Shown: positions 20,524-23,104 of the stretch, piece after piece
Numbering within the stretch: the first letter of the stretch is position 1
Layout of the letters: each line of letters starts with the position of its first letter
Source of the DNA: an uncultured bacterium
Lineage (GTDB): Bacteria > Cyanobacteriota > Vampirovibrionia > Gastranaerophilales > Gastranaerophilaceae
NCBI GenBank assembly: GCA_902801985.1
Contig: CADCKD010000003.1
Coordinates: 62,001 to 126,000 of the forward strand
Direction of reading: 5' to 3'
Length of the DNA stretch: 64,000 nucleotides
Program-made: the position numbers and the translations under genes
Notes under the pieces: generated by a model
Databases searched by the model: none
What the model saw: only the letters and a program-made list of their open reading frames with translations
Told to the model about the DNA's origin: nothing

Positions 20524-20582
20524 ATGTAATTTATTTGATAAACGGTACTTGATTTATAATTTTGTTTATTGTAGTATCTTCT

Positions 20583-20674
20583 TAACCGCAGACAACCGGT
20601 GCCGAATATAGTGGCAGACTTAGTGATAGGTTTTAAACTAAAAGGCATAATTGAAGTATCAGCCGGTCGAGGTT
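20583..20674 (+). promoter_or_regulatory. L10 leader: ribosomal protein L10(L12)4 binding site
   Basis: RNA element before rplJ matching the L10-leader design. Outer helix TAACC (20583-20587)/GGTTA (20670-20674), then an asymmetric internal loop GCAGACA/CGA of kink-turn type, then ACCGG (20595-20599)/CCGGT (20662-20666), with an inner TGCC/GGCA hairpin. In other bacteria the L10-L12 complex binds such a kink-turn to shut down its own operon. Promoter candidates are TTGATA-14-TATAAT (20535-20560) or TTGATT-17-TAGTAT (20549-20577); I cannot choose between them. Confidence 0.82.
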
Positions 20675-20724
20675 ATGCAGAAAGTAAATAGCGAATTCAT
20701 TTTTGAATATAAGACTTTATGTGT

Positions 20725-20769
20725 AAGATTTTGCGGTTAAAACTAGAAAGCAAAATCTTTTTAGTTTTT
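20725..20769 (+). terminator. Attenuator terminator in the rplJ leader
   Basis: Perfect 10-pair stem AAGATTTTGC (20725-20734)/GCAAAATCTT (20750-20759) with a 15-base loop and a T-rich tail, located 52 bases before the rplJ ATG and downstream of the L10 leader. Binding of L10-L12 upstream would be expected to favour this terminator and so set rplJ-rplL output. Confidence 0.78.
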
Positions 20770-20820
20770 ACATAGGTCGATAAAAATCGGATAACGTCCG
20801 AAATGTAAAAGGAGCAAAAA

Positions 20821-21342
20821 ATGTCAACAAAAGCATTTAAATCAGAGAAAATTGACGAAATTAAATCAAAAATTGAAAAAGCTCAAGTTGCTGTTATTAC
20901 AGACTACAAAGGTTTATCTGTTGAAGAAATCACAAAATTAAGACGTGCAATTCAACAAGATGGCGGTGATTATATGGTTACCAAAAATACTCTTGCAAAA
21001 ATTGCAATTAAGGGTACTGATTATGAACCATTAGCAGAAAAATTAACAGGACCTGTAGCTTTGGCTTTTGGTTTTAAAGATCCTGTATCTCCTGCTAAAG
21101 CTCTTAAGAAATTCATTGATGATGTTAAAAAGGGTGAAATTCTTGGTGCTGTTTTAGACGGAAAGCTATTGTCAGTTGAAGAAACTAAGGCTCTTGCAAA
21201 TCTTCCTTCAAAAGAAGAACTTTTTGCAAAAATGCTTGGTTCTATCAATTCACCGGCTTCAGGTATCGTTGGATCTGTTAACGCAGTTATGGCTCAACTT
21301 ACAAGAGCAATGGCAGCTGTTAGAGATCAAAAAACTGCTTAG
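20821..21342 (+). CDS. rplJ: 50S ribosomal protein L10
   Basis: 173 residues. L10 forms the base of the ribosomal stalk and carries the L7/L12 dimers. The N-terminal rRNA-binding domain (VAVITDYKGLSVEEITKLRR, VTKNTLAKIAI) and the C-terminal L12-binding helix (residues about 135-173) are present. AAAAGGAG precedes the ATG. Expression is likely controlled by the leader and attenuator upstream. nusG, rplK and rplA are not in the window, so the operon begins here. Confidence 0.97.
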   Translation: MSTKAFKSEKIDEIKSKIEKAQVAVITDYKGLSVEEITKLRRAIQQDGGDYMVTKNTLAKIAIKGTDYEPLAEKLTGPVALAFGFKDPVSPAKALKKFIDDVKKGEILGAVLDGKLLSVEETKALANLPSKEELFAKMLGSINSPASGIVGSVNAVMAQLTRAMAAVRDQKTA

Positions 21343-21458: not shown

Positions 21459-21839
21459 ATGAGTAACGTAGAAACTATTTTAGAATCAATTGAAAAATTA
21501 ACTTTGTTAGAAGCAGCTGAATTAGTAAAAGCTATGGAAGAAAAATTTGGCGTTTCTGCAGCAGCTCCTGTAGCTGTAGCAGCAGCTCCTGCAGCTGGCG
21601 CAGCAGCTCCTGCTGATGATCCTGATGCTGAAGTATCTGTTATCTTAGCTTCAGTTCCTGCTGATAAGAAAATCGCTGTATTAAAAGAAGTTAGAAACAT
21701 CACCGGTTTAGGACTTAAAGAAGCTAAAGATTTAGTTGAAGCAGCTCCTAAAGCAGTTAAAGAAAACATTAAAAAAGCTGAAGCTGAAGAAATCAAGAAA
21801 ACTCTTGAAGCAGCTGGTGCTGGTGTTGAAATCAAGTAG
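21459..21839 (+). CDS. rplL: 50S ribosomal protein L7/L12
   Basis: 126 residues. N-terminal dimerisation helices (1-35), an Ala/Pro hinge (about 37-55) and the C-terminal factor-binding domain (about 58-126) with [20 protein letters not shown]. It recruits EF-Tu, EF-G and other GTPases to the ribosome. AAAAGGAG precedes the ATG. The gene directly downstream encodes a second, membrane-anchored copy of the C-terminal domain. Confidence 0.98.
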
Positions 21840-21949
21840 TTGCAAGTATAGAATTTTTTCTAAAAAACGAAATTTGATTTTAGACATTATATATGTTAAT
21901 ATGAACGGGCAGCCTTATGGTTGTCCGTTTATTTTGTGAGGGCCGGTTT

Positions 21950-22372
21950 ATGTTTATTTACGATAATTCATTATTATTATTTGCAGCGATTGCTCTTTTG
22001 GCTGTATGGGGATTGCGTGAATATCTTTTAAGATATAAGAATGTAAATATGGATGATGTCAATGTAACGCCTTATTTGAGGTGGTTTAGATTGAAAGTAA
22101 GGCATACATATTTGTATTTTCTTTCGTTATTTAAGAAAAATTTGATGATTGATAAACAGACAGGAAATCATTCTTTATTGATGATTTCGTCCGGTGAGAA
22201 TAAGGCTACTGTTATGGCTACTTTAAGACAAATTACCGGTATCGATTATGATGTTGCTAAAAACATTGTAGAATCTGTCCCTTCAAAATTTATGATAAAT
22301 GTTTCGGCGCAAGAAGCTGAAATGACTAAAAAAGCGCTAGAGTTTGTAGGTGCAGAAATTCTTATAGAGTAA
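21950..22372 (+). CDS. Membrane-anchored protein with an L7/L12 C-terminal-like domain
   Basis: 140 residues. Residues about 6-25 (NSLLLFAAIALLAVWGLREY) form one membrane helix. Then comes a basic linker, and residues about 83-140 align without gaps to the L7/L12 C-terminal domain: ATVMATLRQITGIDYDVAKN against the rplL run [20 protein letters not shown], ending EFVGAEILIE against [10 protein letters not shown]. The Arg of the factor-binding helix and the Lys of the next helix are kept; the first Lys is replaced by Ala. There is no L10-binding N-terminus, so it cannot join the stalk. GAGGG lies 8 bases before the chosen ATG (an upstream in-frame ATG at 21917 is less likely). It lies 110 bases after rplL on the same strand and a terminator follows, so it is probably in the same operon. 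Confidence 0.75.
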   Translation: MFIYDNSLLLFAAIALLAVWGLREYLLRYKNVNMDDVNVTPYLRWFRLKVRHTYLYFLSLFKKNLMIDKQTGNHSLLMISSGENKATVMATLRQITGIDYDVAKNIVESVPSKFMINVSAQEAEMTKKALEFVGAEILIE

Positions 22373-22388
22373 TTTTATATAATAAAAC

Positions 22389-22421
22389 AAAAAGTCCGAA
22401 CAGTTTGTTCGGACTTTTTTT
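22389..22421. terminator. Bidirectional terminator ending the rplJ-rplL operon
   Basis: Perfect 12-pair stem AAAGTCCGAACA/TGTTCGGACTTT with a 3-base loop and a run of T on the plus strand. The A-run on the left also gives a T-run for the convergent winged-helix gene. Confidence 0.92.
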
Positions 22422-22438: not shown

Positions 22439-23104
22439 TTATTTCAACGAGAGAACAAAGCCGCCTTTGTCTGCGTTTCTGAGTTTTTCTCCGTCGATTT
22501 TTGCACGTAAATTTTTGATATATTTATATACATAATCTCTAGGCAAATCAAGTAATGTTGCCAAATCTTTAGCATATACTATTTCGTTTTGGTGAGAAGC
22601 AAAATAATCAAATACTTTTTGTTCTCTGTCTGTTAGAGCTTTTTTAAACACAACTCTTACATTGTCCTTTACACTGTCGCCTGTATGTGTATTTTCAATG
22701 ATTTCTTTTGCTTTAGCAAGGGTTTTCTTTGCTTTTTCTACCTTTTTATCTGTTGTCGGTTTTGCTTTTTTCTCTACAGATTTTACTGGTTTTTCAACTT
22801 TCTTAGCCGGTTCAGCTGCAGTTGCTCCGGATTTTAAATTCTTGACAGAAAATGGTGAAATATAAAGTTCTTTCTCTTTTTCAAAAGCTCTGTCTGCAAT
22901 TGAACTAAGCCTTTCGGCTTTATTGTTCCATTCCGGCATATTTGAAACTACGGGTTTGCCGTGAAGCACTATATCAACAATATCATTTGTTTCTTTTTTC
23001 TCTTCTATTTTTTTGCCTAATCTTGCGGCAAATTCTTCCAGTGTAATCTTTTCTAATGAGCTTCTCCATTGTTTAATTTCTTCTTTGCTCAAGTATTCTG
23101 ACAT
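22439..23104 (-). CDS. Winged-helix protein with a lysine/alanine-rich linker
   Basis: 221 residues, not assigned to a named family. The C-terminal 65 residues (from LTDREQKVFDYFASHQNEIV) look like an OmpR/PhoB-type winged helix: DLATLLDLPRDYVYKYIKNLR is the recognition unit and GGFVLSL the wing. The middle (about 95-150) is dominated by Lys, Ala, Val and Pro, histone-H1-like. The N-terminal 50 residues are a charged helix. There is no receiver domain. It may be a nucleoid-associated or regulatory DNA-binding protein. AAGGAG precedes the ATG. Confidence 0.6.
   Translation of the reverse strand: MSEYLSKEEIKQWRSSLEKITLEEFAARLGKKIEEKKETNDIVDIVLHGKPVVSNMPEWNNKAERLSSIADRAFEKEKELYISPFSVKNLKSGATAAEPAKKVEKPVKSVEKKAKPTTDKKVEKAKKTLAKAKEIIENTHTGDSVKDNVRVVFKKALTDREQKVFDYFASHQNEIVYAKDLATLLDLPRDYVYKYIKNLRAKIDGEKLRNADKGGFVLSLK

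Follow-up and report, generated by a model that had tools for sequence, protein, structure and literature searches.

In the 64,000-nucleotide stretch of DNA analysed here (the window), the gene that follows rplL encodes a 140-residue protein, hereafter X, in which the C-terminal domain (CTD) of ribosomal protein L7/L12 is carried on a membrane helix. The gene is a trait of this genus of non-photosynthetic gut cyanobacteria and is under purifying selection. As the best explanation, we tentatively propose that X docks a translation-related factor at the membrane, as a tethered, cytoplasm-facing and neofunctionalised copy of the L7/L12 CTD; our confidence in this reading falls somewhat short of even.

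The original prediction, made from the DNA letters alone, had placed the gene at 21950-22372, and these coordinates are correct (Table 1); the reading frame encodes 140 residues. A ribosome-binding site (GAGGG) lies 7 nt upstream of the start, and an alternative start at 21917, which would yield 151 residues, was rejected because it lies inside a hairpin and the orthologues begin at 21950. The gene order is rplJ, rplL, X, with a gap of 110 bp between rplL and X, and the genome from which the window comes has one copy of X. The gapless match of 58 residues to the L7/L12 domain of the upstream gene was reproduced: residues 82-139 of X align with the adjacent RplL at 38% identity (E 5e-10). The Pfam family of the L7/L12 CTD (PF00542, Ribosomal_L12) matches residues 78-139 at 9e-11, scoring 42.4 bits where the cut-off is 25.9. 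The identity of the domain as an L7/L12 CTD thus stands, but its proposed size of 58 residues does not, since the structural domain spans about 68 residues (73-140). The dimerisation and L10-binding domain (PF16320), which RplL matches at 1.3e-22 in Pfam, has no match in X, and X remains below the cut-off of the NCBIfam whole-protein L12 equivalog TIGR00855 (43.3 bits vs 84.4). This agrees with the earlier claim that X lacks the L10-binding N-terminus and hence a stalk function via L10.

Table 1. Features of the X locus (positions in the window unless a locus handle is given) and examples of gene M in related genomes.
Feature	Position	Strand	Basis
Probable L10 leader RNA of rplJL	20568..20772	+	RF00557, 42.5 bits, E 5.6e-5; gathering score 44
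rplJ (L10)	20821..21342	+	position and 75-91% identity in relatives
rplL, intact L7/L12, source paralogue of X	21459..21839	+	Pfam/NCBIfam matches, tree
Putative promoter of X, TTGATT-N17-TAATAT, extended -10 TGT	21874..21902	+	conserved in orthologues
Terminator-like hairpin rplL/X, 14 pairs, overlapping the -10 end	21901..21932	+	-23.6 kcal/mol (71-nt stretch), z -3.55
Gene X, 140-residue membrane-anchored L7/L12-CTD paralogue	21950..22372, stop included (ORF 21950-22369)	+	domain matches, fold, orthologues, dN/dS
Hydrophobic core of N-terminal membrane helix of X, residues 8-22, LLLFAAIALLAVWGL	21971..22015	+	hydropathy and charge count, 31 orthologues; model
Basic juxtamembrane segment and linker of X, residues 23-72	22016..22165	+	alignment of 31 orthologues
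L7/L12 C-terminal domain of X, residues 73-140	22166..22369	+	PF00542; 1CTF rmsd 0.9 Å
Helix 4 of X, residues 84-96, NKATVMATLRQIT	22199..22237	+	equivalent of E. coli L12 factor-binding helix 64-76
Terminator-like hairpin after X, common with opposite gene 22439-23104	22389..22419	.	scan lists - strand; T run on + too
Gene M, example	L010:1874-2278	-	
Gene M, example (also in L011, L013, L027)	L143:1277-1696		

The AlphaFold model of X, built with the alignment of 31 orthologues, comprises a helix at residues 3-30, a weakly defined stretch at 31-70 and a beta-alpha-alpha-beta-alpha-beta unit at 74-139 with pLDDT above 90, whose order of strands and helices is that of L7/L12. The predicted domain superposes on the L7/L12 CTD as had been anticipated: VIA-align places it on 1CTF with a Z of 13.5 and an rmsd of 0.9 Å over 68 residues, at 37% identity. 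That X has a single N-terminal membrane helix, as first read from the sequence, is borne out by hydropathy, by the model helix and by the charge pattern. Lysines and arginines are more numerous after the helix than before it in 31/31 orthologues (mean 3.8 vs 0.2), and because basic residues are concentrated behind the helix throughout, the positive-inside rule would place the domain in the cytoplasm. Behind the membrane helix, a juxtamembrane motif, L-K-K-x-Y-x-F-D-M-D, is preserved in relatives and reads LLRYKNVNMDDV in the X of the window; the remainder of the linker varies in both length and sequence. A search for the source of the membrane helix found no other protein in these genomes with that N-terminus at a convincing score.

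A profile search over the 46 genomes available for the genus finds X-like genes in 41, including all 34 good genomes, defined as at least 90% complete. Wherever the loci read have both genes on one contig, X lies on the same strand as rplL and 3' of it, at a spacing of 75-1181 bp if no gene M (see below) intervenes; the position after rplL, which the original prediction had singled out as informative, is thus conserved in the genus. The seeming absence of X from one genome (G001) corresponds to a contig end, and assembly gaps are likely in four further X-negative genomes, as the rplL match is missing there too. In the three close pairs of orthologues picked out, dN/dS is 0.03-0.19, with a dS of 0.29 in the closest. 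The occurrence of X across the genus, together with this low dN/dS, excludes that the reading frame arose by chance. X is absent from the rest of the genera sampled in the family: PF00542 finds only rplL there, the oddities being a split rplL (G132) and a weakly matching frame of 819 codons (G160), and rplL is followed there by unrelated genes. Closely related records derive from rumen and other animal-gut samples. A phage origin of X was rejected, the viral contigs being without any relative. On the other side of X, the gene at 22439-23104 (-) encodes a winged-helix-like protein with no Pfam match over cut-off and is mostly kept beside X in the genus.

The tree of L12 CTDs, which rests on few columns, recovers X as a single clade (100/99) nested with the rplL of the genus itself (98/72). 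Because the X clade sits inside this rplL group, a local duplication of rplL is the simplest origin. The RplL of the genus carries an insertion of one residue ahead of helix 4 (VPADKK vs AGANK in other genera). A minority of genomes also have another gene for a membrane-anchored L12 CTD, termed M (118-145 residues), which is located between rplL and X. The insertion is missing in X and in one type of M and present in the other type, a pattern that suggests at least two duplications. M resembles X in having a membrane helix, an L12 CTD and the same type of promoter; it differs in its restricted occurrence, in comprising at least two types and in a CTD that is nearer to RplL (42-55% identity). 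A soluble protein of 87 residues with little beyond the L12 CTD is found in G019 and G020 (L141:1178-1441 (-) and L142:292-555 (-)), on contigs away from rplL and among small uncharacterised neighbours, with an Hsp20-like gene in L141.

The genus is not alone in having L12 CTDs linked to the membrane, since photosynthetic cyanobacteria also have examples. A further PF00542 match occurs in about 15 of some 100 of their genomes; L094 combines a membrane helix with the CTD, L095 and L097 are larger membrane proteins, and L096 has two CTDs. L099, L100 and L101 are small membrane proteins ending in the L12 helix 4-5 hairpin alone (GKKIEAIKxxRxxTGxGLKxAKxxVE), of which L100 has two copies; in these three, which place the hairpin behind a membrane helix, the design recurs in miniature. 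Like X, the proteins L094, L095, L097, L099 and L100 have a hydrophobic segment followed by an L12 CTD or its helix 4-5 hairpin. Unlike X, the CTD proteins of photosynthetic cyanobacteria are encoded away from rplL, and helix 5 remains of the usual GLKEAK type in several of them; in the tree they fall away from X, indicating a separate origin, except for one row, L095, which is a long branch.

The original prediction had also suggested that X could be under the control of the L10 leader. A match to this leader does exist before rplJ, with a score slightly under the curated Rfam value, so that default annotation would overlook it. A terminator-like hairpin with a T-rich tail, however, separates rplL from X in 24/24 loci without M, and a promoter-like element, TTGATT-N17-TAnnAT with an extended -10 TGn, is found 48-84 bp before X in 22/31 loci, against 0.07 expected. 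The hairpin lies upstream of this promoter in 11 loci, and in 10 its start coincides with the -10 element or follows closely behind it; in loci with M, the conserved promoter stands ahead of M. Searched in its strict form in five whole genomes, the element gives eight matches, five of which are ahead of X or M, one per genome. We infer from these signals that X is transcribed from its own promoter. Since the hairpin and this conserved promoter separate X from rplJL, X would not simply be controlled by the L10 leader, and shared leader control was discarded as the principal route.

Within the X family, no 13-residue window has a lower entropy than helix 4 (0.26 bits), the sequence of which is nearly uniform in X (NKATVMATLRQ). 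Strand 1 and helix 5 are more variable (1.6-1.7 bits), and with strand 2 included the range is 1.5-1.7 bits. The factor-contact face of L12, the residue list of which is in part general knowledge, consists of K65, V66, I69, K70, R73, GLKE 79-82 and K84 (E. coli numbering), and X does not have it in full. K65 is retained in 28/31 orthologues, R73 in 31/31 and K84 in 26/31, so that the conserved arginine and the second lysine of the surface are indeed kept, as first noted. By contrast, alanine replaces V66 in 31/31 and K70 in 30/31; within GLKE, G79-L80 has mostly become D-Y, and K81 and E82 are gone. X has in their place its own characteristic residues, T71 and Q74 being uniform and T67 present in 30/31, none of which occurs in RplL. 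The bL12 CTD is a common dock for IF2, EF-G, EF-Tu, RF3 and LepA (review PMC10931766) and also contacts TACO1/YebC (PMC12724405). Changing K65 or K70 of L7/L12 to Gln, which mimics acetylation, or to Arg weakens EF-Tu binding (PMC10602876). Given the effect of these substitutions, the K70A and V66A replacements and the loss of GLKE make an unchanged EF-Tu-binding role of X unlikely. The helix-4 face of X thus appears to be in use, but probably not for EF-Tu in the customary manner.

We propose that a tandem duplication of rplL occurred in the ancestor of the genus, and that the duplicate would then have shed the L10-binding and dimerisation domain, taken a membrane anchor instead and retained a variable linker, in an order of events that is our reconstruction. 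The plan of the stalk, anchor, linker and catching domain, has thereby been shifted from the ribosome to the membrane, as the sequence and the predicted fold show. That helix 4 is the most constrained part of X and yet has a new, near-uniform sequence suggests that X uses the face of the stalk to bind a specific protein, with changed specificity. A translation factor appears to be the likeliest class of partner, in particular one for which the L12 face is already a docking surface (EF-G, IF2, LepA, RF3 or the stalk-binding YebC/TACO1), and which would be kept at, or brought to, ribosomes on the membrane; EF-Tu bound in the ordinary L12 manner is a less likely partner because K70 is gone. It may also be, although we consider this rather unlikely, that X is a second, non-ribosomal stalk docking a factor of altered preference by membrane-bound ribosomes, and that such arms have been made repeatedly in the genus (X and the two types of M).

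It is a real possibility, which we would still not favour, that X grips, by its rebuilt helix-4 face, a protein outside translation, for instance a regulator specific to the genus or some membrane protein, and that the L12 fold is only a re-used scaffold. The loss of K70 and V66 could mean that X no longer binds translation factors at all, and the uniform X-specific changes (A66, T67, A70, T71 and Q74 in helix 4, D79 and Y80 at the start of helix 5) are consistent with such a partner. So is the juxtamembrane motif, the conservation of which suggests further contacts close to the membrane. The genus has no extra translational GTPase either, with a copy number of 6-8 vs 6-7 in relatives, which amounts to no difference and suggests no genus-specific GTPase partner for X. 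Against this reading, the basic K65, R73 and K84 of the L12 factor surface persist in X, and the gene has remained beside rplL throughout the genus.

It is improbable that X is a membrane decoy titrating translation factors or L12-binding proteins off ribosomes and so slowing translation. Its own promoter would permit expression apart from rplJL, and the contact face is partly retained; however, titration of EF-Tu by a single membrane protein would require a very high abundance. A complete contact face would also be expected of a decoy, yet K70 is Ala in 30/31 X, and substitutions of K65 or K70 reduce EF-Tu binding (PMC10602876). More improbable still is a ClpS-like adaptor feeding substrates to a membrane protease. 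The L7/L12 CTD fold is common to ClpS (PF02617), and in Foldseek and VIA-align the ClpS structures come next after those of L7/L12 (Z 7.8-9.8, about 10-17% identity), but the L7/L12 chains fit X far better (Z up to 13.5 vs 9.8), and X has no PF02617 match at E up to 1. VIA-align also lists penicillin-binding protein 3 (Z 7.1-7.4), a match that we ascribe to a commonly occurring arrangement. Nine genomes of the family (G000, G004, G009, G015, G034 and four of other genera) yielded no separate ClpS in a search that was positive in Synechococcus elongatus; as ClpS is missing in X-less genera as well, X would be no replacement for it.

Recruitment of the SRP-type GTPases FtsY and Ffh, which had been suggested at the outset, is highly improbable: the membrane location and a GTPase-docking fold are the points in its favour, nothing found points to SRP GTPases, and the L7/L12 CTD is known instead as a dock of translational GTPases (PMC10931766). 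That X is a functionless, decaying duplicate of rplL is scarcely credible despite stop codons within X in one genome (G012), and is refuted for the genus as a whole by the retention in 34/34 good genomes, the dN/dS of 0.03-0.19 in close pairs and the nearly invariant helix 4. The locus in question, L026, belongs to an assembly that is 86% complete, and its stop codons may reflect assembly error or loss.

Among known systems, X resembles bL12 (L7/L12, RplL; TIGR00855, PF16320 with PF00542) in its CTD fold, in the equivalents of K65, R73 and K84, in the plan of anchor, linker and CTD and in its gene neighbourhood. X differs from bL12 in that a membrane helix replaces the N-terminal dimerisation and L10-binding domain, in the changes at V66, K70 and G79-E82, and in its putative own promoter. 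Full-text searches of open-access papers found no description of X. The L7/L12 CTD is usually known just as the GTPase-catching arm of the ribosome. A genus-wide copy that is fixed to the membrane, with a face that has been rebuilt and yet is strongly conserved, represents a natural re-specialisation of the L7/L12 surface, and X makes testable both whether translation factors can dock on the membrane at a distance from the stalk and which residues determine the specificity of the arm.
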